Of a DNA stretch of 49,625 nucleotides, positions 5,626-23,400 are shown in pieces. Numbering within the stretch: position 1 is the stretch's first letter; the number at the start of each line of letters is the position of its first letter. Location of the stretch: positions 1-49,625 of the forward strand of contig CAMDOO010000013.1 in the NCBI GenBank assembly GCA_945903545.1, written 5' to 3'. Source of the DNA: Opitutus sp. GAS368. GTDB lineage: Bacteria > Verrucomicrobiota > Verrucomicrobiia > Opitutales > Opitutaceae. The notes under the pieces were generated by a model that saw nothing but the letters and a program-made list of their open reading frames with translations, did no database searches and was not told the DNA's origin. A program made the translations under genes and the position numbers.

Positions 5626-6858
5626 ATGAGCCGTCTCACCCGCATTCCCCATTGTCTCATTCTCTCGGCGGCTCTCTTGATGCCGGCGATTTGTTTGCAG
5701 GCGCAGCCCGCGGCGCCGGCTGCCGGCCGCGGCGCAGCCCCCGCCAACCTGCCCGGCGCCACCGCCGAGCAGAATAATGCCGTTACGCAAATGAACTCCG
5801 GATTGGCGAACCTGGCCGCGGCCGCCACCACCGCCCGCACCGATCTCGCCAAGGCGAGCCTCCAGCTTCCAATCAATCCGAACGACATCCGGGCGAAGGC
5901 CGAAGCTCTCGGCAGCGCGGAGAGCGCCCTCGCCGGGGCCCGCTCCGATGGCTTTGCCGTGCTGCAGGCGTCGGCGAACAAGCTCAACGCCGCGCAGGTC
6001 CAGGCGCTCGTAAGGCCTCCGGCGCCCGCGGGCGCCGGAGGCGGACTGAACACCGCGGAAGCGGTAGCCCCCGAGGAAGGCATGGACAAGTATCCGGTGC
6101 CGCCGGAGGGGTTCAATGTCGCGCGCGACAACATTCCGCATGGCGAGGTGAACATCGTCGAGTACGACTCCAAGACGCTGGGGCTGCGCCGCATGCTGCG
6201 CGTTTACACGCCCCCGGGCTACAGCGCGGATCGCAAGTATCCGGTGCTCTATCTCCAGCATGGCCTGGGCAACACCAGCACCGAATGGACCCAACGGGCG
6301 CGTGCCCCAATCATCATCGACAACCTGCTGGCCGATAAAAAAATCGTGCCGTTCATCATCGTCTTCCCGAGCGGGAATGCGACGGCGGTGCAGGGCGACG
6401 AAAAGCAAGGTGACCGCACGCAGGAGTCCTACGGGCAGCCCTACACGGACGACTTGCTGAAGGAGATCATCCCCTTCGTCGACTCCCACTATTCAGTCTA
6501 TACGTACCGCGATCACCGCGCCATCGGCGGAATGTCGATGGGGAGTGGCCAGACCCTGAACATCGGCCTGACCCATCTCGACCTGTTCAACTGGATCGCC
6601 TCGGTTGCCGCGGCCCCGAACATGAAGAAGCCGGTTTCCGATCTCATTCCCGATCCGGCCGCCGTCAACAAGTTGAAGCTCTTCTGGCTCGCCTCCGGTA
6701 ACCACGATTCCCTGTTCCTCCAAAACACCCTGGTCATGCACAATTACCTGAAGGAAAAGGGAATTTCGCATATCTGGCGCGTGGACAGCAATGGCCACGA
6801 CACCGGCGTCATGAGCGCCAACCTGTATCATTACGCCCAGCTGCTCTTCAAGGAGTAG
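5626..6858 (+). CDS. Exported esterase with N-terminal helical module
   Basis: This 410-residue protein has a Sec signal peptide (residues 1-26, ending LQA) and an Ala/Pro/Gly-Arg linker. A predicted helical module covers 46-129, followed by a putative-esterase domain (esterase D/feruloyl-esterase type) at about 160-410. Catalytic residues are visible: GGMSMGSG with Ser304, Asp361 in SGNHDS and His391 in NGHDTG. The first module aligns with residues 57-142 of the dehydrogenase at 20413-23565 and is not a domain I recognise. The start is well supported by AAGGAAA about 10 bp upstream. A strong terminator follows. It probably deacylates polysaccharide esters in the periplasm; the substrate is inferred from the family only. 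Confidence 0.9.
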   Translation: MSRLTRIPHCLILSAALLMPAICLQAQPAAPAAGRGAAPANLPGATAEQNNAVTQMNSGLANLAAAATTARTDLAKASLQLPINPNDIRAKAEALGSAESALAGARSDGFAVLQASANKLNAAQVQALVRPPAPAGAGGGLNTAEAVAPEEGMDKYPVPPEGFNVARDNIPHGEVNIVEYDSKTLGLRRMLRVYTPPGYSADRKYPVLYLQHGLGNTSTEWTQRARAPIIIDNLLADKKIVPFIIVFPSGNATAVQGDEKQGDRTQESYGQPYTDDLLKEIIPFVDSHYSVYTYRDHRAIGGMSMGSGQTLNIGLTHLDLFNWIASVAAAPNMKKPVSDLIPDPAAVNKLKLFWLASGNHDSLFLQNTLVMHNYLKEKGISHIWRVDSNGHDTGVMSANLYHYAQLLFKE

Positions 6859-6882
6859 GGGAACCAACTCACCCAGCCAAAA

Positions 6883-6910
6883 CCCTCGGAAGCGATTCCG
6901 AGGGTTTTTT
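6883..6910 (+). terminator. Rho-independent terminator
   Basis: Stem CCCTCGGAA (6883-6891) pairs with TTCCGAGGG (6896-6904) around a GCGA loop and is followed by six T. It lies 24 bp after the esterase stop codon. Confidence 0.93.
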
Positions 6911-6947
6911 GTTGGGCTGAGGCCAAGGGGTTGGACACCTGGACCCC

Positions 6948-7005
6948 ATCTGAAATTTGAAATCTGAAATGCCCCATCTGAAATCTGAGATTTCAAATTT
7001 CAGAT
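6948..7005. repeat. AT-rich inverted repeat, ATCTGAAATTTGAAATCT family
   Basis: An 18-nt arm ATCTGAAATTTGAAATCT (6948-6965) has an exact reverse complement at 6988-7005, with further ATCTGAAAT copies between. It is strongly AT-rich in a GC-rich window. A related stretch is at 4812-4840. No coding potential. Confidence 0.75.
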
Positions 7006-7158
7006 TTCTGATTCGGTTCCTGACGCGGGACGAGGCCAGGTAGGACTCAAGGTTGGGACGGAGGGAGCACTAGACCCCATGGCGACGACGGGGCCGGCGA
7101 CTTATGATCGGCCGCAGCCCAGTCGGCGCGCGCATCTTCCGGAAAACTCCTGTCCAAA

Positions 7159-7332
7159 ATGAAACCACCAGCCGTTCCAGAACCCAAGATGGACCTCGCC
7201 AAGGATCTGGCGGTCTTCGAGCGCCTCCCCGCGAAGACCAAGGAGTTGGAGCTGCTGCAGGCCCGGGCGGAAAAAGCGACCGGCCTGGAAAGTGCCGCCC
7301 TCAACCTGCTCATCCGCGACAAGACCACCTGA
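7159..7332 (+). CDS. Small hypothetical protein
   Basis: A 57-codon frame with ATG 7159 and TGA 7330-7332. It has genome-like codon use and a helical, charged sequence: KTKELELLQARAEKATG in the middle and LNLLIRDKT at the end. No signal peptide or membrane segment. I do not recognise a family. The lack of a clear ribosome-binding site and the short length keep confidence low. It could be a small cytoplasmic protein or a chance frame. Confidence 0.4.
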   Translation: MKPPAVPEPKMDLAKDLAVFERLPAKTKELELLQARAEKATGLESAALNLLIRDKTT

Positions 7333-7432
7333 GTCCATTGGCCTTGGCGGGCCGCCGCGCGATTGGACCGAGAAAAGAAACCCAGGAACTTCAAGGCGCC
7401 GGCGGTCTCACCCGCCCGCAAGCGGTCGAGGC

Positions 7433-7990
7433 TCACTCCGCCTTCGGCGCGCTGAAGCTCTTGCTGTAGAACCCGGACCGGTCGAAGCAGCAGACCCGCC
7501 GCTTCCCCTTGGCGAGCATGTCGCAGGCCCCGGCGATCCGGCTCGCGCGCGTTTTCTCCGACTTGGCGGAGATGATCCAGTGGATCCAGTCGGTGCGCGC
7601 GCCGACCGTAAGGTCCGCCCACCCCGCCCGCGCCTTCGGGGCGGCCGCGAGGGCCTGCTGGAGATCGGCCGGCACCGTGGGTTCCCGGTCCGAGTGGGCG
7701 AGTTCCAACGTGACAGTGTCGCCGGCCGTGGCGCCCGCAGCGGCGCCCAGCTTCCGGCTCACCTTGAGCCAGTGACTCTTCTGGCCATCCGGATCCAGCG
7801 CGGCCTCAAACGGGGCGCCGTTGAGCGTGCCTTCGACCAAAGCGAGGCCCCGCGAGGGGAGCTGCGCACTGGCAGCCTTGGGCAGGACGAGAAAGGTCCA
7901 CGCTTCACCCGGTGCGTTCCCCGCCGGCCGGTGAAGGGTCGCGCTGAAGCGGATCCTGGCAGAGGTCTTGGGCATACTGCGCGGGATCAT
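7433..7990 (-). CDS. YdeI/OmpD-associated family protein with DUF1905
   Basis: A 185-residue cytoplasmic protein. The N-terminal half (residues 8-95) resembles the DUF1905 barrel (RIRFSATLHR, HWLKVSRKLGAAAG, GDTVTLEL). The C-terminal half resembles the YdeI/OmpD-associated region (PADLQQALAAAPKARAGW, TDWIHWIISAKSEKTRASRI). Members are annotated as bacteriocin-protection or stress proteins without a settled reaction. The ATG at 7990 overlaps the TGA of the TIR gene (ATGA), which fixes the start and implies translational coupling. Confidence 0.85.
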   Translation of the reverse strand: MIPRSMPKTSARIRFSATLHRPAGNAPGEAWTFLVLPKAASAQLPSRGLALVEGTLNGAPFEAALDPDGQKSHWLKVSRKLGAAAGATAGDTVTLELAHSDREPTVPADLQQALAAAPKARAGWADLTVGARTDWIHWIISAKSEKTRASRIAGACDMLAKGKRRVCCFDRSGFYSKSFSAPKAE

Positions 7991-8778
7991 TTTCCCGCAT
8001 CCTGCGGGGCGATTATTTTGAGGTTGCGGGAGGGATCGGGGTCGGGCGGTCGCGGGCCTGTGCCGCCGGAGACGAACATCAGGAAGCGGATGAGGAGGAA
8101 GATCGTGGCCAGGACCTGCGCCCAGCGCGGCAACCGGTGCCAGAGCACGTCAATCATCCGCCCACCCCAGACCACGAGGTCGTAGATGAAACGCTCCCGG
8201 TGCCCTTTTTCCGGAAACGGTGGAAACACGGGGAACGGATGCTCCCGGGCCCCTCCGGCCGGCTTGGCCGCGGTCCTCTGCGCCTCACGCGCCGCGCGCT
8301 CGGGATCCCGTGGCTGGTGTCCGGTGGCAAACTCCGCCACCAGCCGTTCCGCCATCGCGGTGAGCGCGGGGTTCTCGCGGCCGTCGGGACACTGCGTCCA
8401 GTGGACGGAGAGGAATTTCTCGGGCACCCGCGCCGTCCGCTCCGACGTGGCGTCGATGACCACGGGGACGAGGAACGTGACATCGTCGGCCATGTCGAGG
8501 TTGCGCTCGACCCCCAGTCGCCACTCGCGGCGGAAGTAACCCTCCCGGCGCGTCTCGGTCGACGACGAGATGATCGGCATGAAGTAGGTGCAGGTGCGGA
8601 TCTGTTGCCGGATCTTCGCATCCCACGCATCGCCACCGGTCAGCTCCTCCTCGTCGAGCCAGACCTCGAGGCCGGCCCTGGCCAGCGTCTCGCGAATCGT
8701 CCGCGCCGCCGGGCGGTCCGCCGAGGCGTAACTGAGGAAGACCGAGGGCCGCGCGGGTGTCTCCGGCTCGCTGGACAT
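7987..8778 (-). CDS. TIR domain protein with C-terminal membrane segment
   Basis: A 263-residue protein with an N-terminal TIR domain (about 10-150). SVFLSYASADR is strand A and VWLDEEELTGGDAWDAKI the BB-loop region. SSSTETRREGYFRREW contains Glu85, the likely NADase catalytic glutamate. A Pro-rich linker (about 175-195) leads to a hydrophobic segment WAQVLATIFLLIRFLMF near residues 221-240 and a short tail, so the TIR domain is probably anchored at the membrane facing the cytoplasm. Bacterial TIR proteins cleave NAD+ or make NAD-derived signals, often in phage defence. No recognisable sensor domain is present in this protein. It forms a four-base overlap with the YdeI-like gene downstream. 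Confidence 0.9.
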   Translation of the reverse strand: MSSEPETPARPSVFLSYASADRPAARTIRETLARAGLEVWLDEEELTGGDAWDAKIRQQIRTCTYFMPIISSSTETRREGYFRREWRLGVERNLDMADDVTFLVPVVIDATSERTARVPEKFLSVHWTQCPDGRENPALTAMAERLVAEFATGHQPRDPERAAREAQRTAAKPAGGAREHPFPVFPPFPEKGHRERFIYDLVVWGGRMIDVLWHRLPRWAQVLATIFLLIRFLMFVSGGTGPRPPDPDPSRNLKIIAPQDAGK

Positions 8779-8830
8779 CGCGGGCGAAGCTCGCCACTGG
8801 CGCAGGGCGAGTCAAGGCGGGCGCGGCGTG

Positions 8831-8928
8831 GGTCCTGCCTCCTTTTCACGTAATAAGTGAAAAGTGCGCAACGCGCCCCCAGGGCTACTCCCAGCATTTC
8901 ACGTATTACGTGAAAAGGAGGCAGGACC
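8831..8928. repeat. 98-bp element with perfect 25-bp terminal inverted repeats
   Basis: The left arm 8831-8855 (starting GGTCCTGCCTCCTTTTCACG) has an exact reverse complement at 8904-8928. Each arm also contains a smaller palindrome: TTTTCAC-GTAATAA-GTGAAAA at 8844-8864 and TTTCACGTA-T-TACGTGAAA at 8898-8916. It lies between two minus-strand genes, upstream of the TIR gene, and is not followed by a T-run. It looks like a miniature mobile palindrome or a regulatory cruciform. No coding sequence is inside. Confidence 0.9.
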
Positions 8929-8954
8929 GGGGCGTGAGGGCACGCGCCTCTGCC

Positions 8955-8990
8955 AAAAAAAGATCGGCGCCGGGAAACCCGGCGCCGATC
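8955..8990 (-). terminator. Rho-independent terminator of the minus-strand esterase gene
   Basis: A 13-bp perfect stem (8962-8974 with 8978-8990; arm GATCGGCGCCGGG) has a three-base loop. On the minus strand it is followed by seven T (8955-8961). It lies 23 bp after the stop codon at 9014. Confidence 0.93.
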
Positions 8991-9013
8991 GGAATCGAAA
9001 GCGGAGCGACCGC

Positions 9014-10309
9014 TTACTTGGCCGCCGGGTAGAAGACCGAGTCGAAGAACGCCTTCATCTCGGCGGCGTACTTCACGCCGTACTGGGCGAAGGTGGCCTT
9101 GGTGCGGGCGTCGGGTTTCCAGTCGAAGAACGCGTGGCCGGCGCCCTCGACGAGGACATACTCGGCGCGCTGGCCGGCGGCCTTGAGGGCGTTGGTGTAG
9201 CCCTGGACCTCCGCGTCGGGAATCGTCCGGTCGTTCGTGCCACGGAGCAGGTACTGGGGGACGGCGCGGTCCTTGATGTTCGGAATGTGCTCCTGGGGCG
9301 CAATCGCGGCAGCGGCGGCGGGGGCCGCGCCGTTCATTTGTCCACCGAGCATGGTGGCGCTGAACACTCCGTAGCTCGGGGCGGCGGCCTTGAGGGCGGC
9401 GGTGAGCGAGGTGCGCACCTGCGCGGCGGTCTTGCCCGCGGGAAGATAGGTGGGCTTGAACTGGTACACGCCTTCCTGCACGCCGAAGCCGCCATCGCCG
9501 ATCATGTCAACGAGGTTGATCGCGGCCGCGGAGAGGTGGCCGCCGGCGCTGTCGCCCGTCACCGCGAGGCGGGTCGGGTCGGCACCGTACGAGGCGGCGT
9601 GTTCCTGGAAGTGGGCGAGGGCGCCGAACACGTCCTCGACCAGGGCCGCCATGGAGTTGGGGGACGCGTCGCCGTCGGCGGTGCCGATCCAGCGGTAGTC
9701 GACGCTGGCCACGACGTATTGCCCGCCGCGGACGAGCTCGCGGGCGAGGCCGCGCATGATGTCCTCGGTGTTCGCGGCCCAGCCGCCGCCATGGATGATG
9801 ACGATCGCGGGCAGGTTCCGGGCGCCGTTGGGCGTGAACACATCATACTTCAGCGTCTTCACCCCGGGCTTCGCATAGACGATGTTCTGTTTCACGGTGA
9901 AGCCCTCGAGGGCCTGCGGGTCAATGAAGGAGGCGCCGACGCTCTTGTTGCGGTCCGCGGTGACCTTGATCTCGGTGCCGGTGAACTCCTCGAAGCCGGG
10001 AAAGCGCCCCGCGATGGTGTAGTTCACGCTGTCGATCGCGAAGCCCGGAGCGGGAGTAGCCGTGACGGTGAAGACGGTGCCGGGGGCCACCTTGCCGTCG
10101 GCGGGGAGGGCGGGTGTGATGGCGATCGTGCCGTTCTCGGGGTTCCGGACCGTGATGGTGAAGGTGGTGGGTGCGGCCGCGGGGGCAGCCGCGGGAGCCG
10201 GGGCGGGGTTCTGCGCGCGGGCCGGGAGGCAGCCCAGGGCGCAGAGCAGGCCCAGTCCGAGGGCGGTGAGAGGACGGGAATCAGCGTTTTTCGAGTGGGG
10301 ATGTGGCAT
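9014..10309 (-). CDS. Exported alpha/beta hydrolase with InlB-like repeat domain
   Basis: This 431-residue protein has a Sec signal (ALGLGLLCALGCLPARA, cleavage before QNP) and an Ala/Pro linker. A divergent InlB B-repeat-like domain follows (FTITVRNPENGTIAITPALP onward, about residues 50-130), then an alpha/beta-hydrolase fold of the HSL/BD-FAE type. HGGGWAAN is the oxyanion motif, GDSAGGH holds the nucleophile Ser, GTNDRTIPDAE the acid and GAGHAFFDW the His. I start at the ATG ending at 10309 because the signal peptide begins there; the upstream 59 codons look non-coding. It probably cleaves a carboxylic or sugar ester in the periplasm or at the cell surface. The repeat domain may bind a surface or substrate (inference). 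Confidence 0.88.
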   Translation of the reverse strand: MPHPHSKNADSRPLTALGLGLLCALGCLPARAQNPAPAPAAAPAAAPTTFTITVRNPENGTIAITPALPADGKVAPGTVFTVTATPAPGFAIDSVNYTIAGRFPGFEEFTGTEIKVTADRNKSVGASFIDPQALEGFTVKQNIVYAKPGVKTLKYDVFTPNGARNLPAIVIIHGGGWAANTEDIMRGLARELVRGGQYVVASVDYRWIGTADGDASPNSMAALVEDVFGALAHFQEHAASYGADPTRLAVTGDSAGGHLSAAAINLVDMIGDGGFGVQEGVYQFKPTYLPAGKTAAQVRTSLTAALKAAAPSYGVFSATMLGGQMNGAAPAAAAAIAPQEHIPNIKDRAVPQYLLRGTNDRTIPDAEVQGYTNALKAAGQRAEYVLVEGAGHAFFDWKPDARTKATFAQYGVKYAAEMKAFFDSVFYPAAK

Positions 10310-10546
10310 GGAGGGTGGGGGTGTAAGGTTCGGGGTTGGGAAAGCCGGTTCCGTCAGGACGGGCGACGGGGTGGCGGCAGGAAGGGACGGAAGTTGATTG
10401 CAGGGGAACGACCGGGTCCAGCATGGCATGGCGGCTTCTCCGGCGTCTTGCACCGCCTGACCCAATATTTTGTCTGCCGGCGCCAAGCCAATTCAGGCTG
10501 AATCGACCTGGCCGAAGGCGCCGGATTTTGAATCCCAAGACCATCC

Positions 10547-10590
10547 GGGCTCCGCGCCCTCTGCGGCCCTTGCGTGCCAAACGGTTTGAA
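10547..10590. repeat. Dispersed CTCTGCGG..GCGTGCCAAACGG repeat
   Basis: The segment TGCGTGCCAAACGGTTTGAA, preceded by GCGCCCTCTGCGGCCCT, recurs with few changes at about 31780-31820 (GTGTGCCAAACGGTTTGAA) and 34112-34145. All copies are intergenic. Its role is unknown. Confidence 0.6.
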
Positions 10591-10602
10591 TTAGGCCGGG
10601 CC

Positions 10603-11361
10603 TCACCGTTGGGTCAGCTGGCCGAACACGATCCGGCCCGTGCGGATCATCCCGGCTTTTTCCAGCGTCCGCTGGGAGGCGAAATTGTCGGGACTGGTCC
10701 GGGCGGCGGGGATCGCGCCGAGGTCGCGGGCGGCCCGCTTCAGCTCCTGCGCGAGGTACGCGCCCAGGCCGCGCCGGCGGAATGGCCCGGGGATGTCCAT
10801 GGCGATGTCGGCATGCGGAACATTATAGTGGAAGAGCAGGGTGCCCTTGCCCACCTCGGCCCCCTCAAGTTCGAGCACCCACTCGCATTGGCCGGCGCGT
10901 TCCTGGAGGCACAGCTGCGTTTCCTGCACGGAGGTCATCTGGCGCAACCGGGCGCCCTGCGAGGGCAGGGTGGTGGTCTGGCCCTCGGCGTAGACGAGGC
11001 GATCTATTTGGTGCGGGCCGGGCAGCCGGCCGACCAGCTCAGGCATCAAGGGCAGGTTGGTCTGCAGCTCGTACGAGTCGGCCCGGCTCGCCTGGGCAAA
11101 GGTGTCCCACAGCTCCGGCCATGAGTCGCGTTCGGCGCGTTGCAGAAAAAAATCAAAGACGGTGCGCCGTCCCTTCCATGGGCCTGCGACTGCCAGGCCC
11201 GCGAAGCCGACCGGCGTGCCGCCCAGCTGCAGCAGGTACTGCAGGCACCAGTCGCGGCGTTCGTAGAGGGAGTCATGGACAATCTGGCACGCGGATTCGG
11301 CGCGCAGCTCGTTCCGCCACGGGGCGATTTCCGGGCGCGGGACTTCGACGGCGGTGAACAC
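10603..11361 (-). CDS. GNAT family N-acetyltransferase
   Basis: About 252 residues. The C-terminal region carries the acetyl-CoA motif A of GNAT enzymes (PGPFRRRGLGAYLAQELKRA) and the following NFASQRTLEKAGM strand-helix. The N-terminal half (PVGFAGLAVAGPWKGRRTVF) looks like a degenerate second GNAT lobe. It transfers acetyl from acetyl-CoA to an amine; the substrate is unknown. The GTG at 11361 gives VFTAVEVPRPEIAP and is preferred. An in-frame ATG at 11493 would add 44 residues that look non-coding. It stands alone, convergent with nothing obvious. Confidence 0.78.
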   Translation of the reverse strand: MFTAVEVPRPEIAPWRNELRAESACQIVHDSLYERRDWCLQYLLQLGGTPVGFAGLAVAGPWKGRRTVFDFFLQRAERDSWPELWDTFAQASRADSYELQTNLPLMPELVGRLPGPHQIDRLVYAEGQTTTLPSQGARLRQMTSVQETQLCLQERAGQCEWVLELEGAEVGKGTLLFHYNVPHADIAMDIPGPFRRRGLGAYLAQELKRAARDLGAIPAARTSPDNFASQRTLEKAGMIRTGRIVFGQLTQR

Positions 11362-11559
11362 GGCTTGATTCCGCCGGGAAGTGGCGGCGGAGCAAATCAC
11401 TTTGGGCGCAGTCCTGATTTGGTCGGGCGGAGTCCACGCCCTTCCGGCGGGAAGATTATCCAAGCCAGAACACTGCTTGGCTTGGCTCCGCATTTAGCTC
11501 CGAGCGAAATCTGGAAACATCTCGCCCCGCGACCTGTAGTATAGCCGATTACGTTCCCG

Positions 11560-13215
11560 ATGCCCACCTCCTCAGCTCTGGCTCGCATTTGGTGCCGCTG
11601 GCTTTTCTCGGCCTGCCTGCTGGTGCTCGCGTTTTCCGCCCGGGTCCAGGGCGCGGTGGAGGAGGCCGACGATGACAACGACGATGTCACGGTCATGGCG
11701 CCGTTCACCGTCAACGCGGCCCCGGTGGAGGAATTCGGCTTCCGGGTGAATTTGAATATCACGTTCGGCCTGTCCGGCTGGGATTCCACCGTCACCGTTT
11801 CGCGGGTTTATCCCAACACCGTGGCGGCCCGGGCCGGCCTGCGGCCCGGGGACCGGATCCTCCGGACCGACGGACAGTCGGCGAGCGTCTCGCTTTTTTC
11901 GCTCTCCAAATGGAGGAAGCTGATGGAGAAGAAATCCGTCGCGGCCGCCGCGGACAGGGGCGCCACCTGGACGCTCGAGGTCCAGTCGCGCGACAGCAAC
12001 CTCCCCCGGACGGTCAAGCTGTCCGTGCCTTCCCCACCGCCGCACTGGGGTGCGAAGCCCTGGGTGACTCCGGAAGGTCGCGCTCCGGTCGCGGTGCCGG
12101 AGCCGGGCCCGTTGGCGGCCCTGGCCCGGACCGTCCTCGAGCATGGCGTCTGGACCACACACCCGGACGACTGGAAGGCGCTGGGCTACGACTGGACCCT
12201 GACCACGCGCGACGGCGCCCGGCACCGGATCTTTGTTTCCCGCGATCGCGGCCGGACGGAGATCATCCTCAGTCGCTCGCTCCGCGGAAAATACCGCTAC
12301 ACCTTTGTCACCTCGCCCTCCGGGGCGCTGCAGGAAGCCCGGACGTCGCGCGACAAGGACAGTGAACTGCCGCTCGACCAGGCGCGTGCGGCGTTCGAAC
12401 AGGAGATCGGCTTCTGGCTCAAGGACGTCGAACGTGTCACCGGCCGCTGGCCGTTCGAGGTCAGCAATCCCGCCCTGGCCGTCGTGCCCATCGCGGGTGC
12501 CGCGCCACGCGCGCCAGCCGAAGGCCTGGCCAAGGCTGGGAATCTGGCCAAGCCGCCGGACTCCTTTCTCAAGCTTCCGAAGGCCACGACTGCCCAGCGG
12601 GAACTGTTCACGGACGCGCTGGCGAAACTCGGCGCCGATGAGGACCGGTGGGCGTACACGGAGACGTCGCGCGGCCTGGACGACAAGTACGTGACCGTGA
12701 CGCGCTTCGATCCGTCGAAGACGGGCGAGGCCCGCGCGACCCTGCTGAAGCTTGATGGCAAGCCGCCCACCCCGGCGGCGGTGAAGAAATGGCGCGATGA
12801 AGGCCGCGACACGCCGGCGACGCTCTCCGAGCTGCCGCCGCTCCGGGATCTCGTCGATCTGGAAGAGGTGCGGGTCTTCGCGGAGGAAACGGCCGGCGTC
12901 GTTTTCGAGCTGCCCCTGCGCTCCGGGAACAAGGATTTTCCCGCCGACAAGTTCCAGGCGCTCTTTCGCGTGAACAAGACACACCGCGGTTTCGAGGATT
13001 TCTCGGTGAAGCTCCGCGAGTCGTTCCGCGTTGCCGGGGTCGTGAAGGTGACGGATGCCGGGATGGAGGCGCGCTTCCAGACCCTCGACCCCGCTTACTC
13101 ACCGCAACCCGTGCTGCTGAAAGCCGGCGGCGCGGTTCGCGTCCTCCTCGTGAAATTCGGCCGCTCGTTCGAAGCCACCCGCCAGGATTACCAGCGCGTC
13201 GAGCCCGCGCCCTGA
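11560..13215 (+). CDS. Exported PDZ-domain protein
   Basis: 551 residues. A signal peptide (WLFSACLLVLAFSARVQGA) is followed by an acidic stretch and VTVMAPFTVNA, a motif like the APF/SPF segment found after signal peptides in many Opitutaceae TonB-dependent receptors. A PDZ domain spans about residues 60-140 (VSRVYPNTVAARAGLRPGDR is the carboxylate-binding region). The remaining 400 residues match no family I know. There is no protease triad, so it may be a binding or scaffold protein in the periplasm. The start ATG 11560 directly precedes the signal peptide. Confidence 0.85.
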   Translation: MPTSSALARIWCRWLFSACLLVLAFSARVQGAVEEADDDNDDVTVMAPFTVNAAPVEEFGFRVNLNITFGLSGWDSTVTVSRVYPNTVAARAGLRPGDRILRTDGQSASVSLFSLSKWRKLMEKKSVAAAADRGATWTLEVQSRDSNLPRTVKLSVPSPPPHWGAKPWVTPEGRAPVAVPEPGPLAALARTVLEHGVWTTHPDDWKALGYDWTLTTRDGARHRIFVSRDRGRTEIILSRSLRGKYRYTFVTSPSGALQEARTSRDKDSELPLDQARAAFEQEIGFWLKDVERVTGRWPFEVSNPALAVVPIAGAAPRAPAEGLAKAGNLAKPPDSFLKLPKATTAQRELFTDALAKLGADEDRWAYTETSRGLDDKYVTVTRFDPSKTGEARATLLKLDGKPPTPAAVKKWRDEGRDTPATLSELPPLRDLVDLEEVRVFAEETAGVVFELPLRSGNKDFPADKFQALFRVNKTHRGFEDFSVKLRESFRVAGVVKVTDAGMEARFQTLDPAYSPQPVLLKAGGAVRVLLVKFGRSFEATRQDYQRVEPAP

Positions 13216-13256
13216 GTGGGCGAAGGGTTTGAAATGCAGGAGCCTGCTTGAGCTTT

Positions 13257-13312
13257 GTAGCTGGCCTCGCTGAGGCCGGCGGATCGGATCCGGGGTCAAC
13301 GCCCCCGGCTAC
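13257..13312. repeat. GTAG..CTAC palindrome pair (REPIN-like), CTGGCCTC family
   Basis: It begins GTAG with hairpin CTGGCCTC-GCT-GAGGCCGG, continues to CCGGGGTCAACGCCCCCGG and ends CTAC. The first 23 bases equal those of the copy at 3928. Convergent gene ends flank it. Confidence 0.8.
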
Positions 13313-13324
13313 ATCCTGGGTTCT

Positions 13325-13347
13325 GTAGTCCGGGTGTCTTCACCCGG
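13325..13347. repeat. GTAGTCCGGGTG-type REP
   Basis: GTAGTCCGGGTGTCTTCACC then CGG: a GTAG head followed by a hairpin CCGGGTG-TCTT-CACCCGG. Same family as 14890, 29871 and 41369. Confidence 0.8.
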
Positions 13348-13379
13348 AGATCCCGCAGTTTGCGGCGCCCGGCTGGCGG

Positions 13380-14889: not shown

Positions 14890-14945
14890 GTCGGGGTGCG
14901 CCCACCCGGAGATGATCGTTTTCCGGGTGAGGGCCCCCGGACTAC
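14890..14945. repeat. REPIN-like pair, GTAGTCCGGGTG family
   Basis: Two inverted copies: GTCGGGGTGCGCCCACCCGG at the left (head degenerated from GTAG) and CCGGGTGAGGGCCCCCGGAC ending in CTAC at 14945. It lies between the CotH gene and gntK. Confidence 0.75.
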
Positions 14946-15029
14946 ATTCATGCCATCCCCGCGCGGCATGGCTTGTCGGATGATCGAAAGTCTTGCCTAA
15001 GCCCAAGGCTCGATCCGCATGATGGCGGC

Positions 15030-15551
15030 ATGGCAGCAACCCCGCTCCTCGTTGTCATGGGCGTGTCCGGCTCCGGCAAGTCCACCGTCGGGGCCGCTCT
15101 GGCCCGGCGGCTGCGGGTGCCGTTTGCCGACGGCGATGATTTTCACCCCCCCGCCAACCGGGCCAAGATGACGGCCGGCGAGGCGCTGGACGACGGCGAC
15201 CGGTTTCCCTGGCTCGAGGCGGTTGGACAGTGGCTCGCCGCGCATCCTGAAGGGGGCGTGATGAGCTGCTCGGCGCTCATGCGGAAGTACCGCGACCACC
15301 TGCGCCGCCACGTGCCCGGGCTGCGGTTTGTCCACCTCGTGGGCAGCCACGAGATCATTGCGCGCCGGCAGGCCGGCCGGTCCGGCCACTTCATGCCGGC
15401 CTCGTTGCTGCCCTCGCAGTTCGCCGTGCTGGAGCCGCTTCAGCCGGACGAGCCCGGCGTGGCCCTCGATGTCGGCCGGAGCGTCGACGGCATCATCGAG
15501 GAATTCCTGCGGAGGCTCGACGCGCCCGCCCAACCGGCGGAGAGGAAGTGA
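15030..15551 (+). CDS. gntK: Gluconokinase
   Basis: 173 residues, the usual length for thermoresistant-type gluconokinase, which phosphorylates gluconate to 6-phosphogluconate with ATP. The Walker A motif GVSGSGKST is at residues 11-19. FADGDDFHPPANRAKM and GEALDDGDRFPWL are the typical gluconate-binding region, and SCSALMRKYRDHLR and GHFMPASLLPSQFAVLE follow as in the family. ATG 15030 precedes the Walker A strand directly; ATG 14973 would add 19 unlikely residues. Its stop overlaps the start of the damaged gluconate permease gene (TGATG), showing an ancestral gntK-gntP operon. Confidence 0.95.
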   Translation: MAATPLLVVMGVSGSGKSTVGAALARRLRVPFADGDDFHPPANRAKMTAGEALDDGDRFPWLEAVGQWLAAHPEGGVMSCSALMRKYRDHLRRHVPGLRFVHLVGSHEIIARRQAGRSGHFMPASLLPSQFAVLEPLQPDEPGVALDVGRSVDGIIEEFLRRLDAPAQPAERK

Positions 15552-16613
15552 TGGCCGCCCTGTCCGCTGTTTTCCCCTGGCCGCGGCTTCGCTCGTGCAG
15601 CCCATCGCCGGCGGGTAGCAGCTGATCATCGCCGCCCTGGCCGCGATCGCGCTCATCGTCGGGCTGATCACGGTCGCCAAGGTGCACCCGTTCCTGGCGC
15701 TGATCTTCGGTGGCCTGACCGGCGGTCTCATCGCCGGTGAAAACGTGGATGCTGTCCTGCGGTCCTTCTCCTCCGGCTTCGGTACGACCGCCGCCGGTGT
15801 TGGCGTGTTAATTGCGCTCGGGGCGATGTTCGCCAAGCTCCTCGCCGATTCCGGCGGGGCCGACCAGATCGTCGATACGATCGTCGGCCGGGCCTCCCCG
15901 CGGGCGCTGCCGTGGGCGATGGCGGCGGTGGGCGCGATCATCGGCCTGCCGATGTTCTTCGACGTCGGCCTCGTGCTGCTGATGCCGTTCATCTACCTCG
16001 TCGCCCGGCGCGCGCAGGTCTCCCTGATCACCATCGGCATCCCGGCCCTCGCCGGCCTCTCCGCGATGCACGGACTCGTGCCGCCGCACCCGGGCCCGCT
16101 GACCGCGGTGGATTACCTCGGGGCCGACCTCGGGCTCACCCTCGGCCGCGGCGCGGGCATGTCGGGCCGAGAGATCTCCAAGTGCATCGAGTCCTCGCTG
16201 CCCGGGATCTCGGGCATGCTGCTGATCGTGGCCGCCGGCGGCGGCTTCAAGCAGGTGCTGGTCGACACGGGCATCGGCACGCTGCTCGCCGAATGGGCCA
16301 GGGGCGCCAATGCCTCCGTGCTGCTGCTGGCCTGGGTGTTGTCGGTCTTGATCCGCCTGGCGACCGGCTCGGCAACGGTCGCCACGATCACGGCCTCGTC
16401 GAGGGCTTCTCCCCGGGCGAGAAGTCCCTGGTCGTGCTCGCGGTCGGATCCGGCTCGGTGTTCCTCAGCCATGTGAACGACGCGGGTTTCTGGCTGGTGA
16501 AGGAGTATTTCGGCCTGACGGTCGGCCAGACCATGAAGACCTGGGCGCTCATGGAGACGCTGCTCTCCGTCGTCGGCCTGGTCTTCGTGCTGCTGCTCAG
16601 CCTGGTGATCTAG
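15551..16613 (+). pseudogene. gntP: Gluconate:H+ symporter gntP, disrupted
   Basis: The remains of a GntP-family permease. The frame is lost soon after the ATG at 15551. The conserved N-terminus (QLIIAALAAIALIVGLITVA) follows an in-frame TAG at 15616-15618. About 100-110 residues normally found between the ADLGLTL segment and GREISKCIESSLPG are missing near 16155. A short out-of-frame deletion near 16393 follows TGSATVATITA. The end (FLSHVNDAGFWLVKEYFGLT) is in a different frame and runs to TAG 16611-16613. Remaining length is about 333 codons against 440-450 in the family. Gluconate uptake by this protein is almost certainly lost. Confidence 0.9.
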
Positions 16614-16616
16614 GAC

Positions 16617-17077
16617 TCAGGGCGCATTTGGCGCGGGCGTGGCCTGACCCGTCATTGGAGTGGCCGGGGCCGGGGCGCAGGGATGGCCGTTGATGAGGAA
16701 ATTCCTCGTCGTCAGGTTTTCCAGGACGGCGAGGTTGGCGGCGCCGTTCGTGAGCTTAACGTCGACATTCTCGAAGGTGAAATCGCGCAGCACATCGCCC
16801 GGGTTGCCGCGCACGACGCCGAAGGTGCCGTAGTCGCCGCGAATATTCTTTAGGGTGATGCCGTTCACCTGGCGGGTGGGCGGCGGCTGGCCCTTGAGGT
16901 CGAAGAACTGAGTCCAGGGCGCGATGTTGATCAGCCGGCCCGTGCCCTTGAGAGTGATGCCGTCGAAGGTGATCTCCTCGTAGTGCTGCGGGGTGTCTGG
17001 CCGGAGCTTGAGGGTGAGAATCGTGGCCGATGCCGCTCATCGTGCAGTTGCGGACGAGCACGCGGCGGCTGGGAATT
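16617..17077 (-). pseudogene. C-terminal remnant of a GH28-like polygalacturonase
   Basis: Only the last 150 or so residues of a right-handed beta-helix protein remain. RVLVRNCTMSGIG is in one frame. After a single-base shift near 17035 it continues as LRPDTPQHYEEITFDGITLK and NGITLKNIRGDYGTFGVV. This pattern fits exported GH28 pectinases. The catalytic part is absent, and an in-frame stop lies just upstream of 17077. It ends three bases from the gntP remnant. Confidence 0.7.
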
Positions 17078-17088
17078 CAACCGCGGCC

Positions 17089-17898
17089 TTACCGGAGATC
17101 ACCCCAAAGCGTGCGCAAGCCGGCGCCGAAGGAGTCGGGCAGGACGTTGTAGTGATTGCGCTCGGGGAAGCTGCGGCTGGTGACGTCCAGCCCGGGAAAG
17201 GGCCGGGCCGTGAGCTGCGCCTCGAACTGCTCGAGATCGGCCAGGGTGGAGGCGGAGTCCTTTTCCCCGACGCCGAGGAAAAGGCGCGCGGGCAGGGCGG
17301 TGCCGGTGGCCTGCAGGTTCTGCGCGTCGCACATCAGGGCGCGGTTGTCCCACCAGAGCGACGGGGCGCTGGCGAGGCCGCGGTTGAAGAAGGGATCCCG
17401 CCGGAAGAGGGCGTGCAGCACGAGCAGGGCGCCGAGCGAGTGGCCGGCGAGCCCGCGCACATCCTCGCGCACGGGAAACCGGCGTGCGAGCTCGGGCCAG
17501 AGGGTGTCGATGAGAAAGCGGAGGAAGGGCTCGGCCCCGCCGCTGCCGGCCTCGGTGGCGACCGCGGTCGGCGTGTAGTCGCGCAGGCGCCGGTTGCCCG
17601 GCTTGGTGTAGCCGGCCCCGTAGCCGACGCCGAGGAGCAGCACGGGCGGGAGGTCACCGGCGGCGCGCGCCTGGTGCGCGGCTTCGGCGGCGAAACGAAA
17701 CTGGTCGTCTCCGTCGAGGAACAACATCGCCGGCCACGGTCCGGGCCGATCCGCCGGAGCATCGACGTAGATCGGGTAGTCGGTCCCGGTTTGCGGCGAG
17801 GCGAGGACGAAATCGGGACGGGGATTGGGAGGAATGCTCACGTGGATTCCGGAAAGGAACAAAGCCACCGACCGGTCCGCAACTCCTCGCCCAAGCAC
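17089..17898 (-). CDS. Putative esterase, enterochelin-esterase/YbbA-like
   Basis: 269 residues of the putative-esterase (esterase D/Fes-like) alpha/beta-hydrolase family. PAMLFLDGDDQFRFA is an early core strand, GLAGHSLGALLVLHALFRRD contains the nucleophile Ser, and SFPERNHYNVLPDSF carries the catalytic His. No convincing signal peptide. Members hydrolyse siderophore trilactones, acyl-CoA-like or polysaccharide esters. The ATG at 17898 is given; a GTG at 17841 (VSIPPNPRPDFVLASP) would remove 19 residues and is equally possible. It lies just upstream of the GH28 remnant on the same strand. Confidence 0.82.
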   Translation of the reverse strand: MLGRGVADRSVALFLSGIHVSIPPNPRPDFVLASPQTGTDYPIYVDAPADRPGPWPAMLFLDGDDQFRFAAEAAHQARAAGDLPPVLLLGVGYGAGYTKPGNRRLRDYTPTAVATEAGSGGAEPFLRFLIDTLWPELARRFPVREDVRGLAGHSLGALLVLHALFRRDPFFNRGLASAPSLWWDNRALMCDAQNLQATGTALPARLFLGVGEKDSASTLADLEQFEAQLTARPFPGLDVTSRSFPERNHYNVLPDSFGAGLRTLWGDLR

Positions 17899-18015
17899 AT
17901 CATCGATCCCCGGGCCCGGGCACCGGGGGTTGGAATCACAATGGCGGTGATCTTCGCGGATGCTGGGTCGGGCTCCCGGCTCTCGCCGCTCCGCTCCCGC
18001 CGGCCTGGTTCCGGC

Positions 18016-18492
18016 TCAGAGGCCGGCCGCGGCGGTCCGGAGTGCCGCCAGGCTCGCGGCCTGCTGCAGGCGCTCGGCCTCCGCGACCAGGTTGGCGACG
18101 CGAGTGGCATAGCGGCGGCTCGATGCCGGGGCGCGGCGGGAGGTGACGGACTGCAGGCCGCCGTTCCAAGCGAGGGCGATGTTGAATGCGCTCGGCTCCA
18201 TCCCGGCCTTCACCAGGCCGCGCTTGATCCAATCGTAGTGCTTCGCCGCGACCTCGTCCGCCGTGGCGCGCTCGTTCGCCCGGCTGAAGGGCTCCTGGGA
18301 ATGCATGAACCAGGTGCTCCGGCGAAACTGGTACGCCCCGAGTTCCCCCTTCGGGCCGGGTTGCGTGCGATTGTGGGGATTCTCCACTTGGTTGATGGCG
18401 CGCAGTACCTGGGAGCGCTCGGCGGCGACGGCCAGCGCGGGCAGGCCGAGGGCAAGGGCGATCAGGCAGAGCAGGGTCGGCAGTATCTTCAT
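18016..18492 (-). CDS. Small exported lysozyme/transglycosylase-like protein
   Basis: 158 residues. A signal peptide (LPTLLCLIALALGLPALAVA) is followed by a compact lysozyme-like segment: SQVLRAINQVENPHNRTQPG with Glu37 as candidate catalytic acid, and GAYQFRRSTWFMHS, which matches the GAYQF-type motif of SLT-like domains. A helical tail follows (RYATRVANLVAEAERL). It may cleave peptidoglycan in the periplasm. It is shorter than typical Slt domains, so activity is inferred. The ATG at 18492 begins the signal peptide; the longer frame upstream is Arg/Pro-rich noise. Confidence 0.75.
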   Translation of the reverse strand: MKILPTLLCLIALALGLPALAVAAERSQVLRAINQVENPHNRTQPGPKGELGAYQFRRSTWFMHSQEPFSRANERATADEVAAKHYDWIKRGLVKAGMEPSAFNIALAWNGGLQSVTSRRAPASSRRYATRVANLVAEAERLQQAASLAALRTAAAGL

Positions 18493-18787
18493 ATATGGCG
18501 GGGCGCGGAGAAGGGATGAAGGTCGCGCGGAGTAAAGCGGGAAGATTGGCCCGTTTTTTACACTGTGCGCCGGAATGACGCCCTCTTTGTAAAGAAGCAC
18601 GTAAGTCGCGCATCCCCGGCGAAATTCCTGCGCCAATATTGCGCTGTAATCTGACCCCGGCCGGAAACTATTTTTCCAGCGCGGCGCACCCGGGAGGAAA
18701 GGAGTAGGGTTTGGCCCCATAGTTGTTTCCGGGGCCTGGTGGCACGATGCACGGGTTCAATCATCCCAACCCGAACTGTTTCACCCT

Positions 18788-19204
18788 ATGAAAACCAATC
18801 AAAACTCCGCCCTCCGTCCCGCTTGGATCCGTCACGTCGCCCTCGTCATGGTCGCATGCGTCGGCCTGAACACCCTGGCCCCGGTCGCCTTGGCGGGTCC
18901 GATCAGCTCCGCCACGATGGTGGCCGGCAGCTCCCGCACCGCCGACCTCGCCTCGATCCGGCTCGCGCTGGAACACAAGGTCGTCCAGCAGCGCCTCGGT
19001 GAACTCGGCTTCACCCCCGGTGAGGTCAGCCAGCGGCTTGCGCATGCAAGCGATGCGGAGCTGCACCAGCTGGCCATCCAGTCCGAGAACCTGCAGGCGG
19101 GCGGTTTCCTGATCGGGATCCTCGTTGTCGTCATCCTCGTCATGGTGATCATGCGCCTCGCCGCGACGTCCGACGTCATTCAGCCGGCATCCGGCGCGGT
19201 CTGA
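18788..19204 (+). CDS. PA2779 family membrane protein
   Basis: 138 residues: a signal or N-terminal membrane segment (VALVMVACVGLNTLAPVALA), a soluble helical stretch (EHKVVQQRLGELGFTPGEVS) and a C-terminal membrane segment (FLIGILVVVILVMVIMRLAA). This layout is that of the PA2779 family, which as I recall is found next to PA2778-type cysteine peptidases, as here (7-bp gap). Function is unknown. Confidence 0.85.
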   Translation: MKTNQNSALRPAWIRHVALVMVACVGLNTLAPVALAGPISSATMVAGSSRTADLASIRLALEHKVVQQRLGELGFTPGEVSQRLAHASDAELHQLAIQSENLQAGGFLIGILVVVILVMVIMRLAATSDVIQPASGAV

Positions 19205-19211
19205 GCCAGCC

Positions 19212-20183
19212 ATGCTGCGAAGCATGTTCAGGCTCGGCCTGCTGGCCGGGGTCGCCCTGCTTTCTGCCTGCGCCACGTCCGGATCCGCCGGTCGTGGCAC
19301 AGGTCTGCCCTTGGCGCCGCAATCCAGCAGGCTCTTCCAGTGCGGCCCGACCACGCTCGCGGCCGTGCTCGCGTTTCACGGGAAACCCATCCGCGAGGAG
19401 GCCATTTCCCAGGCGATCTACAGCCCCACGGCCCACGGCGTGCTGGTGACGGACTTGGCGTGGTACGCGCGAGCGCAGGGATTTCAGACCGTGGTGGCGA
19501 CCGGCACCATGGATGACTTGCGCCAGGCTCTGGCGGCCCGGCAGCCCCCGATTGTCCTCCTCGATCTCGGTGCCGGTGGCATCCACATCCCTCATTTCAC
19601 GGCGATCACGGGCTGGACCGAGGCCGGCGTCCTTTTCCAAGGAACGACCCCCGGGGGGGGAGTTCATGACGACGGACAAATTTCAAAGACTATGGCAACG
19701 CGCTGGAAAACAGTACCTCTTGGTCTCGCCCTCACCCTGATGCTGGGGCTCGGCTTGAGCGGTTGCGCCACTCTGCGCCACCGTCCGATGACCGATCCCC
19801 TGACGCCCGCGGAGCATCTCGCGCTGGGAGTCAGCTACGAGCATGACGGCAGCCTGGACCTGGCATTGCGCGAGTACGCGCGCGCCGCGGTGGGCCCGGA
19901 AGCGAGCTCGGCCCTGACCGCGCAAGGCAACGTCCATTTCACCCGGCAGCAGATGCCGGAGGCAGAGGACTGTTTCCGTCGCGCGCTCGCCTTGTCCCCT
20001 GACAACACCGCCGCGTTGAACAATCTTGCCTGGCTACTGGCCCGCCAGCAGCGATCCCTTGAGGAGGCCGAGCGGCTCATCCGGCATGCGCTGGCACTCG
20101 GCGCCGAACCGCGCGCGAGCTTTGACCACACCTTGGAGTTCATTCTTCAGGCAAGATCGGCTGCTCCCTTGTCCGGGCTGTAG
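19212..20183 (+). CDS. PA2778-type cysteine peptidase fused in frame to a TPR lipoprotein
   Basis: As sequenced, one 323-codon frame. Residues 1-150 are a lipoprotein signal (LAGVALLSAC) plus a C39-like peptidase: FQCGPTTLAAVLAFHGK holds the catalytic Cys, and HIPHFTAITGW the His. After a run of eight G (19653-19660) the frame enters SKTMATRWKTVPLGLALTLM, a second lipoprotein signal (LSGC), and TPR repeats (SSALTAQGNVHFTRQQMPEA, NTAALNNLAWLLARQQ). With seven G the peptidase would instead end in DKFQRLWQRAGKQYLLVSP and a stop at 19740, the ending expected of the family. The fusion is therefore probably an artefact or a slip product. Confidence 0.75.
   Translation: MLRSMFRLGLLAGVALLSACATSGSAGRGTGLPLAPQSSRLFQCGPTTLAAVLAFHGKPIREEAISQAIYSPTAHGVLVTDLAWYARAQGFQTVVATGTMDDLRQALAARQPPIVLLDLGAGGIHIPHFTAITGWTEAGVLFQGTTPGGGVHDDGQISKTMATRWKTVPLGLALTLMLGLGLSGCATLRHRPMTDPLTPAEHLALGVSYEHDGSLDLALREYARAAVGPEASSALTAQGNVHFTRQQMPEAEDCFRRALALSPDNTAALNNLAWLLARQQRSLEEAERLIRHALALGAEPRASFDHTLEFILQARSAAPLSGL
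19653..19740 (+). other. G8 slip site and alternative C-terminus of the C39-like peptidase
   Basis: Eight consecutive G at 19653-19660 separate two readings. The frame reached with one G fewer reads PGGEFMTTDKFQRLWQRAG then KQYLLVSPSP and stops at TGA 19738-19740, overlapping the ATG of the TPR lipoprotein (19692). The W..AG..LLV pattern resembles the peptidase-domain end in PA2778-type proteins. This could be a sequencing miscount, phase variation or programmed slippage. Confidence 0.75.
19692..20183 (+). CDS. TPR-repeat lipoprotein (likely independent gene)
   Basis: From ATG 19692 the protein has 163 residues. It has a lipoprotein signal TVPLGLALTLMLGLGLSGC, then two to three tetratricopeptide repeats (LALGVSYEHDGSLDLALREY, GNVHFTRQQMPEAEDCFRRA, NNLAWLLARQQRSLEEAERL). 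A complete lipoprotein signal in the middle of a frame argues that this is a separate gene that overlaps the peptidase end. In PA2778-type proteins of other bacteria, as I recall, a TPR region follows the peptidase in one chain; here the two parts appear split. It is probably a protein-binding partner of the peptidase (inference). Confidence 0.65.
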   Translation: MATRWKTVPLGLALTLMLGLGLSGCATLRHRPMTDPLTPAEHLALGVSYEHDGSLDLALREYARAAVGPEASSALTAQGNVHFTRQQMPEAEDCFRRALALSPDNTAALNNLAWLLARQQRSLEEAERLIRHALALGAEPRASFDHTLEFILQARSAAPLSGL

Positions 20184-20412
20184 GTGACCGGAATCAACGC
20201 CGTGAGCGGTGCCGCGATTCCACCAAAAATTCGCGATCAGAGGCCATTCTTCGACAGGTCATTCCGCTAGACTCCGCGGCGACCGTCCCTAGGTTACGGG
20301 GCTATTATCACCCGCCCGGCGTTGCTTCGCCGGTCAGTTCTCCAACCCCTCCCATCGGTATCGTCCGGTATTGTCCCGTCTGCACCCTGCAGCCTTAGCC
20401 CGAGAAAAACCC

Positions 20413-23400
20413 ATGCACTCCAACCTGCACCCGTCATCCGCCCGTCTCCGTCCGTTGTTTGTCGCCGGCGCCCTTGTCCTCGCCGCGCTTCCCGCCCTTG
20501 CCCAGAACCCGGCCGCTCCCGCCCCCGGCGGGGCCCGCGGTGGTGGCGGCCGAGGAGGCGGCGGTGCCGCGCAGGGCGCGTTGTCCGCCGCCCAGTCCAC
20601 CATGATCGCCGGTATTGATGCGCTCGTGCAGGCCAAGCTGGCCGCGGCCACCGACGCGCGCTCCACCCTCACCCGGGCCTCGCTGACCGCGCCGGCCAAT
20701 CCCGCCGACGTGCGCAGCGCGGCCGAAGCGCTCGCGGCGGCCGAACTCGCGCTTGCGAACGCCCGGGCCTCCGCCTTCGTGCTCGCCCAGGATTCGGCCG
20801 ACCGCCTCACCCCCGCCCAGGTCCAGTCGATCATTGGCACGGCCGGCAATGGCGGCGCCCTCATCGCCGCCGCACCCGCGGGCGGTCGCGGCGGCGGCGG
20901 TGGCGGACCCCAGTTGTCCGATCCCGCGTATGCCAACTTCGATGCCATCTTCCCGAAGAGCGACCCGGTCAAGGCGCAGACTCCCGAAGAGGAGCTGAAG
21001 GAGTTCATCCTGCAGCCGGGCTACAAGATGGAACTCGTGCTGTCCGAGCGCGACGGCATCAAGGAACCGGCCGCCATCGCCTTCGACGGCAACGGCCGCA
21101 TGTTCGTCCTCGAGATCCGCGGCTACATGCTGACCATCAACGCGGCCAGCCAGCGCGATCCCAACGGACGGATCTCGCTCCATGAGGACACGAACAACGA
21201 CGGCGTCTACGACAAGCACTCCGTCTTCGTGGACAACCTGGTCTTCCCGCGCTTCGTGACCCCGTTCGGTCCCAATGCCATCCTCACGATGGAGACTGAC
21301 CAGGACGAACTCTGGAAGTACACCGACACGAACAACGACGGCGTGGCCGACAAAAAGGAGCTGATGACCACCGGCCTCGGCCGGACCGGCAACGTCGAGC
21401 ACCAGCAGGCGTTCATGACGTGGACGATGGATAACTGGATGTACAGCACCTACAATGCGGTGCGCGTCCGCTGGACCCCGAACGGGTTCCTGCGCGAGGC
21501 CACGGGCGCCCACGGCGGCCAGTGGGGAGTGACGCAGGACAACGACGGCAAGCAATGGGTCCAGGGCGGCGCCAGCGGCCTGCCGTCCTATTTCCAGTTC
21601 CCGACCGTGTACGGCAACATCAACGTCGGCACGCAGTGGGACAACGACTTCACGATCCCGTGGGGCGCCCCGGTCCGCATCGCCGACATGCAACCCGGCC
21701 TCTCCTCGGTACGCATGCCCGACGGCACGCTCAACCGGGTGACCGGCTCGGCCGGCAATGACATCGTCCGCGGCCACAAGATGCCCGCCGACATGCAGGG
21801 CGAATACCTCTATGGCGAGCCGGTGGCGCGCATCGTCCGGCGCGTCCACCCGACGGTCACGGAAGGCGTCACGACGCTGAACAACGCCTACAAGTGGAAC
21901 GAGTTCATCAAGTCCACTGACCCGCTCTTCCGCCCCGTCGACATGGCCACCGCGCCAGACGGCAGCGTCTACATTGTCGATATGTACCGCGGCATCATTC
22001 AGGAGTCCCAGTGGTCCGCCCCGATCGGCACCTACCTCCGCGCCCGCGTCGACCAGTACCAGCTCGACAAGCTCCACAGCATGGGCCGCATCTGGCGCCT
22101 GACCTACGAGCCGCTCGGCCGCGACAAGACGATGCCGAAGATGAACAGCCAGTCAGCCGCTCAGCTGGTCGCGAACCTCTCGCACCCGAACGGCTGGTGG
22201 CGCGACACCGCCCAGCAGCTGCTCATCCTCAAGCAGGACAAGTCCGTGGTGCCCGCCCTGAAGAAGATCGTGGCTTCCAAGGAAAACACGCTCGCCCGTT
22301 TCCACGCCCTCTGGACGCTAGAGGGCATCGGCTCGCTCGATGCCAAGCTCGCGCGCGACCTGCTGAAGGATTCCGAGCCCCGCATGCGCTCGCAGGCCAT
22401 CCGCGCCAGCGAGACGCTCTACAAGGGCGGCGACAAGTCGTTCGGCGCCGATTACGCCACGCTCGCCAAGGACGCCGACACCAATGTCTCCATCCAGGCG
22501 CTGCTGACGATGAACACGCTCAAGGTCCCGGAGGCCGTCGCCGTCGCTAAGGTCGTCCAGGACAGCAACAAGGCCCGCGGCGCGCAGGTGGTCTCGAGCT
22601 ACGTCCTCAATCCCCCCGCCGCCGGCGGCGGCCGCGGCGGTGCCGCGCCCGCGAATCTGGGCGCCGCGCAGGCTTCCTACGACCGCGGTCAGGCGATCTA
22701 CGCCAGCATCTGCATCGAGTGCCATGGCGCGAATGGCCTCGGCGCACCGAAACCCGGCACGACCGGCACGATGGCTCCGGCCCTCGCCGGTTCCGCCCGC
22801 GTCAGCGGCCACCGCGATTACGTCCTCAATGTGCTGCTCAAGGGCCTGACCGGCCCGATCCCCGGCACGAGCTTCAACGACATCATGGTTCCGATGGGCT
22901 CGCAGACCGACCAATGGATTGCCGACGTCTCCACCTATATCCGCAACAGCTTCGGCAACCTGTCCGCCGCCATCACCCCCGACCAGGTGGCGAAGGTGCG
23001 CGCGGCCACGGCCAGCCGGACCACTTCCTGGACCTTCGCGGAAATCGAGCCGCGGATTCCCGACCAGCTCATCAATTTTGGTGACTGGACGCTGACCGCG
23101 AGCAGTAACCCCGCCGGCGTGCGTGCGGCCGTCACGACCTTCACCTCGTGGAGCGCCAACACCCAGGGCCAGCAGGGCAACACCTGGTTCCAGATCGAGA
23201 TGCCGGTCGCGGCCAGTGTCTCCGAGCTCCAGTTCAATGTCAGCGCGGGCGGCGCCGGTGGCCGCGGCGCGGGCGGCGGCCGCGGCGGCCCGGTGGCTGC
23301 CGTGGCTCCCGGTGACGAACTGCCCGTCGCGGTGCCGGCGGCTGCCGCCCCGGCGAACCCGGGCGCGCGGGCGTTCCGCGTCGAGGTCTCGGCCAACGGG

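Follow-up and report, generated by a model that had tools for sequence, protein, structure and literature searches.

In this analysis of a stretch of 49,625 nucleotides from Opitutus sp. GAS368 (contig CAMDOO010000013.1; hereafter the window), two genes for exported enzymes, a putative esterase and a heme-binding dehydrogenase, were found to carry the same segment of about 84 residues. This module is a lineage-specific, high-copy feature of one genus of uncultured Opitutaceae. Homologous copies occur at 37 places in the genome, clean insertions among them, in proteins that bear export signals; the copies are under purifying selection and are predicted to fold as a helical hairpin. The preferred explanation, which is put forward tentatively, is that the genus copied a hairpin derived from Spy/CpxP into its exported proteins, where it may work in homotypic docking or oligomerisation.

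The two window genes and their module copies are arranged as follows.

5626..6858 (+): host 1, exported putative esterase of 410 residues; open reading frame (ORF) with a signal-peptide-like N-terminus at residues ~1-26
5704..5760 (+): Gly/Arg/Ala/Pro linker ahead of copy 1 (..PAAGRGAAPANLPGA), read from the sequence
5761..6012 (+): module copy 1 in the esterase, predicted helical hairpin of 84 residues (46-129, from the ATG at 5626)
6169..6678 (+): esterase catalytic domain PF00756, residues 182-351, expectation value (E) 1e-22, downstream of copy 1
20413..23565 (+): host 2, exported PVC-type heme-binding dehydrogenase of 1050 residues; ORF with a signal-peptide-like N-terminus
20506..20583 (+): linker GARGGGGRGGGG ahead of copy 2, read from the sequence
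20584..20835 (+): module copy 2 in the dehydrogenase, predicted helical hairpin of 84 residues (58-141, from the ATG at 20413)
20836..20907 (+): GGRGGGGGG linker behind copy 2, read from the sequence
20983..22107 (+): DUF7133 propeller domain of host 2 (Pfam)

Judged by alignment, the two segments are homologous and lie where an earlier sequence-only reading of this DNA had placed them. Copy 1 (TAEQNNAV...NAAQVQALV) and copy 2 (SAAQSTMI...TPAQVQSII) share 44% identity across 85 columns, BLASTP with composition adjustment gives 54% across 65 residues without gaps (E 4e-12), and a 36-row profile matches them at E 3e-28 and 1.7e-23, respectively. The same reading had called the downstream enzyme domains unrelated, which Pfam and NCBIfam bear out: the PF00756 esterase stands against a propeller (DUF7133, E 3e-77; TIGR02604 "PVC-type heme-binding", E 4.5e-37, NCBIfam) combined with HEAT_2 and cytochrome c domains (Pfam). 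Its label of a pyrroloquinoline quinone (PQQ) dehydrogenase has to be dropped, as neither database gives a match for PQQ and the enzyme is a PVC-type heme-binding propeller dehydrogenase. No Pfam or NCBIfam model covers either window segment, no confident match to a known domain extends across the module in these databases, and a sequence search of the PDB returned a SlyX homologue as sole match (E 0.13). No description of such a domain was found in the open-access papers searched.

The module, first taken to be common to two proteins, is present in 37 copies in this genome. A two-row profile built from the window segments matched 37 places in the 3.1-Mb genome at E < 1e-4, and the 36-row profile (A2) recovered exactly 37 copies at E 8e-29 to 8e-13. 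All 37 lie in open, stop-free frames and 0/37 outside a reading frame; decayed copies may escape the profile search. Three partial, sub-threshold matches (G000 C58:19020-19100, C101:3965-4045 and C110:2791-2898; E 0.09-0.4 under the two-row profile, two of them interrupted by a stop) were not recovered with the 36-row profile and may represent decayed copies or noise.

Two congeners hold 25 and 24 copies (assemblies 92% and 75% complete), all three examined genomes of the genus being fragmented assemblies. Among 252 genomes of the family, the module was found in 3 of 49 genera, and the two other genera have 1-2 copies each: one copy in G556, and two tandem copies within one small exported protein in G024. 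The G024 frame (L042 1111-2220; G024:C193, modules 2272-2961) encodes 370 residues with a signal peptide, the two modules and a GRG-rich linker, beside which no other domain is recognisable. In a sample of 388 genomes from the phylum one further match appeared (G341, E 9e-5), which amounts to about 0.03 for the whole scan, since E-values are given per genome. The contig scan is weak for this module because it has no long conserved stretch, and alignment A7 leaves out row L040. The matches are not merely Ala-rich helices, a doubt raised when the profile search was proposed: beyond the narrow range just described, the profile is silent in other GC-rich relatives, and a generic Ala-rich helix is ruled out. 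A tblastn search for a plasmid or phage origin of the module gave no match.

According to Pfam, the hosts include ThuA-like proteins, 3-keto-disaccharide hydrolases, SGNH hydrolases, esterases, alpha/beta hydrolases and TIM barrels; further hosts are a cytochrome-linked glucose/sorbosone dehydrogenase, gluconolactonase-like and YncE-like propellers, a sulfatase-modifying-factor-like protein, a DUF6797 protein and several DUF7133 dehydrogenases. Most of them look catabolic. Export signals are present on 37/37 hosts (a simple heuristic detects them on 36, and L016 has a Tat motif); the same heuristic flagged 12 of the 32 long ORFs in the window. The initial description of an N-terminal module proved too narrow, as copies are also internal (including inside catalytic domains), C-terminal, or nearly stand-alone in small exported proteins, and the ThuA-like family alone contains internal, N-terminal and C-terminal ones. 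A manual count gives at least about 20 separate insertion events.

In the alpha/beta hydrolase L030, the alignment indicates a clean insert of about 84 residues in a loop of the catalytic fold, the alpha/beta-hydrolase domain; the homologues L181-L183, from three other genera and with 43-44% identity, run uninterrupted through the site. A stretch of about 82 residues between two strands of the GSDH propeller L008 is absent from seven homologues of other genera and present in congener G002. The window esterase has an orthologue in congener G001 (locus L141) that is 85% identical, with matching upstream DNA, and carries a short GGGGAARGGAG linker at the site instead of the module, from which the esterase outgroups are also free. 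This difference reflects either a gain in one or a loss in the other; L141 is the sole close empty site and falls in an unalignable Gly/Ala linker, the other empty sites being too diverged. The paralogues of the window dehydrogenase in its own genome (C4, C96, C1 and C113; 51-71% identity) gave no match to the module. Paralogue C4 (locus L172), checked in the alignment, is without it and has retained a GRGGRGGVPGTTLAGG linker in its position, which may be a remnant.

The evolution of the module was followed in 53 pairs of copies from different genomes, most of which are orthologues that share a site. In these pairs the module has a median identity of 67% and the host one of 78%, and the median ratio of nonsynonymous to synonymous differences (pN/pS) is 0.43 and 0.31, respectively; the module is under purifying selection, less strict than that on the host. 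Copies at different loci of the own genome have a median identity of 37% in protein and 51% in DNA, and the closest DNA pairs, at 72% or less, belong to paralogous hosts. With no near-identical copies at the DNA level, recent transposition is ruled out. Because of the purifying selection and the wide divergence among copies, the spread is considered old and the retention to take place at the protein level.

These values bear on the possibility that the module is a selfish element of DNA inserted in frame, comparable to the Rickettsia palindromic elements (RPEs); it would insert at random, survive only where the peptide is tolerated, in the linkers and surface loops of proteins that are exported, and have no function of its own. 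Such an element would account for in-frame copies at many sites in unrelated genes, presence and absence at an orthologous locus within the genus, the looser constraint relative to the host, and the strong lineage restriction. It is unlikely here, given the long-term purifying selection and the existence of stand-alone genes with signal peptides made of little besides the module. A palindrome is ruled out by RNA folding (z versus synonymous shuffles, mean -0.24; 4/37 below -2). Since no copy lies outside a reading frame, none is recent and no palindrome is found, this explanation loses the most ground among the rivals.

In the module tree, the resolution of which is limited by 84 residues, the copies group by orthologous site. 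The tree also joins copies from unrelated hosts, namely L017 with L100, L018 with L004 and L030 with L008 (support 0.83-0.90); in it, the stand-alone protein L013 falls among copies from the two other genera (support 0.85-0.86). This topology would fit a stand-alone ancestor that was later copied between hosts.

Glycine- and arginine-rich linkers of the GRG/RGG type are found within 40 residues to the left of 26/37 copies and to the right of 25/37. As 5 copies have no GRGG linker at all, and module-free linkers of this kind are found in G001, G003 and paralogue L172, the moving unit is unlikely to require them; they look like a trait of the family's exported proteins that is older than the module and independent of it. 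Two further GRGG stretches lie in the dehydrogenase frame, at residues ~780 and ~996. GRGG-rich linkers are enriched in the own genome (38 GRGGRGG-coding matches versus 11 with the pattern reversed); they are likewise enriched in G003 and G025, both of which yielded no module.

AlphaFold, run with a three-row alignment for each window copy, predicts the same antiparallel hairpin twice: a 33-residue helix, a short loop, a 34-residue helix, and a short third helix at the second TxxQ-like motif. In the model of copy 1 (construct of 105 residues) the helices span 17-49, 55-88 and 92-99, with a mean predicted local distance difference test (pLDDT) score of 80.7; in that of copy 2 (95 residues) they span 8-40, 46-79 and 83-91, with a mean of 84.5. 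The pLDDT exceeds 90 in the hairpin core of both. The structure prediction asked for by the sequence-only reading, together with the export signals on the hosts, agrees with its idea of a common helical module in different exported enzymes.

Conservation was calculated over 85-89 copies. The second long helix (B) has five conserved positions: R (97%), A (98%), A (96%), E/D (96%) and Q (88%); the first (A) has R (79%) and A (97%). Paired LTxxQ motifs are present in relaxed form, as L (40%), T/S (69%) and Q (80%) in the N-terminal one and as L (72%), N/S/T (89%) and Q (77%) in the C-terminal one. The conserved polar residues of both helices could form a binding site, and as all hosts have export signals and most look catabolic, the module might serve to attach or localise its hosts by binding a single fixed envelope or extracellular target (peptidoglycan, outer membrane, matrix) without any mutual binding of the enzymes. 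This is improbable: the conserved positions of helix B recur every 7-8 residues and may instead reflect the hairpin core and salt bridges, and there is no likeness to a known envelope-binding domain in Pfam.

The faint likeness to CpxP/Spy proteins seen at the outset has gained weight, as both the profile-profile comparison and the only out-of-family profile match point to this superfamily. The latter, G341_L047, is itself a genuine Metal_resist/LTXXQ protein (E 3e-14 and 3e-10). In hhalign, the module aligns with Spy/Metal_resist at E 0.0016 (probability 16%) without the bridging sequence; with it, E reaches 8e-5, a value inflated because the template sequence had been found with the module profile. 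The best E among 100 shuffled controls was 0.21. No Pfam family other than PF13801 is matched by more than one module member: 4/36 members match at E <= 10 (best 0.011), the stand-alone L013 reaches E 0.001 with 19.7 bits versus a cut-off of 29.2, and several sub-threshold PF13801 matches in three congeneric genomes fall on modules. Export (37/37) and a long antiparallel hairpin (two predicted) were both found, as in Spy/CpxP, and are non-specific for the superfamily. Foldseek lists ZraP (3lay), CnrX and CpxP (3qzc/3itf) at E > 1 amid unrelated hairpins; the VIA result is unspecific, and the lack of a Spy-type chain among the matches listed excludes nothing. Overall, the module is probably a distant homologue of Spy/CpxP/Metal_resist (LTxxQ) proteins. 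The relation is supported, short of proof, and the module is not filed as a member of the superfamily.

A possible Spy/CpxP relation, the export signals and the paired TxxQ-like motifs with their conserved Q would also suit a built-in chaperone or solubility domain, that is, a Spy-like hairpin protecting exported enzymes in cis during folding or stress. This role is distinctly improbable, as a chaperone would be oddly placed in the midst of a catalytic domain, there are close homologues and paralogues that lack the module, and membership of the Spy/CpxP family is not established.

In the preferred reading, that of a hairpin kept for homotypic docking, the ancestor would be a small exported protein of Spy/CpxP/Metal_resist type, with the stand-alone L013 as its probable nearest living form. 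In-frame copying would have carried the hairpin to about 20 or more separate sites in exported proteins, where it would have been retained because such hairpins may associate with one another. In this way, sugar-degrading enzymes outside the cytoplasm could be gathered, perhaps linked by the module-only proteins. Several points weigh against this reading. The looser constraint on the module than on the host also fits a tolerated passenger; Foldseek and VIA gave no significant or specific match, long hairpins resembling many unrelated proteins; the Pfam cut-off of PF13801 is not reached by the module; the figure of about 20 insertions was obtained by hand from host families and positions; and the functional step, module-module association included, is drawn wholly from analogy.

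It is rather doubtful that the genus is turning its exported sugar-degrading enzymes into a self-assembling extracytoplasmic consortium through repeated insertion of the hairpin in linkers and catalytic-domain loops, with module-only connectors. If true, this would represent a cellulosome-like principle built from a Spy-type hairpin, together with a way of repeatedly inserting a folded domain in frame. The copies also form a natural series for the in-frame spread of folded domains through a bacterial proteome and for enzyme loops that tolerate a hairpin of 84 residues, and they bear on whether such spread builds physical enzyme consortia. In any case, an unannotated domain family is defined here and can be described at once.

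Two further features of the window were recorded. At 19212-20183 (+), a peptidase-C39-like exported protein and a TPR lipoprotein share one frame, the lipoprotein having its own internal signal/lipobox (LGLGLSGC); this is either a gene fusion or the result of a lost stop or frameshift between two genes. The gene at 7987-8778 (-) encodes a TIR-domain protein (PF13676, E 9e-20), which has a hydrophobic stretch close to its C-terminus.

Among known systems, the RPEs provide the closest published parallel for a sequence spreading in frame through unrelated genes (PMC10969869). They are elements of about 150 base pairs, nearly half of which are inserted in genes in frame and more than half outside genes (PMC10969869). 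Like the module, they are lineage-restricted repeats within many unrelated protein genes. The module differs in that it measures about 252 base pairs, is not palindromic, never lies outside a frame, occurs in exported proteins only and is under purifying selection.

With the Spy/CpxP/ZraP/CnrX proteins (PF07813 LTXXQ, PF13801 Metal_resist), the module has in common that they are exported small helical hairpins, with one TxxQ-type motif where the first helix begins and one ahead of the last short helix, and that the profiles align colinearly over 63-80 columns. Hairpins of this type are known to oligomerise. To our knowledge, the known members are stand-alone proteins or membrane-anchored sensors; the module, in contrast, stays below the Pfam cut-offs, is rich in Ala and for the most part fused into enzymes, and reaches dozens of copies per genome.

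As in the promiscuous accessory domains (dockerins, carbohydrate-binding modules, spacer domains), which are attached via flexible linkers, a small domain is found on many unrelated secreted catalytic domains. Unlike these, the module has no sequence family match, is high in copy number in one genus only, and sometimes lies inside a catalytic domain instead of being appended. Promiscuous domains have usually been appended to enzymes over long evolutionary times and are common to whole phyla. In the present case, one domain reaches up to 37 copies per genome within a single genus, some of them inside catalytic domains, and one site is still empty in a sister species.

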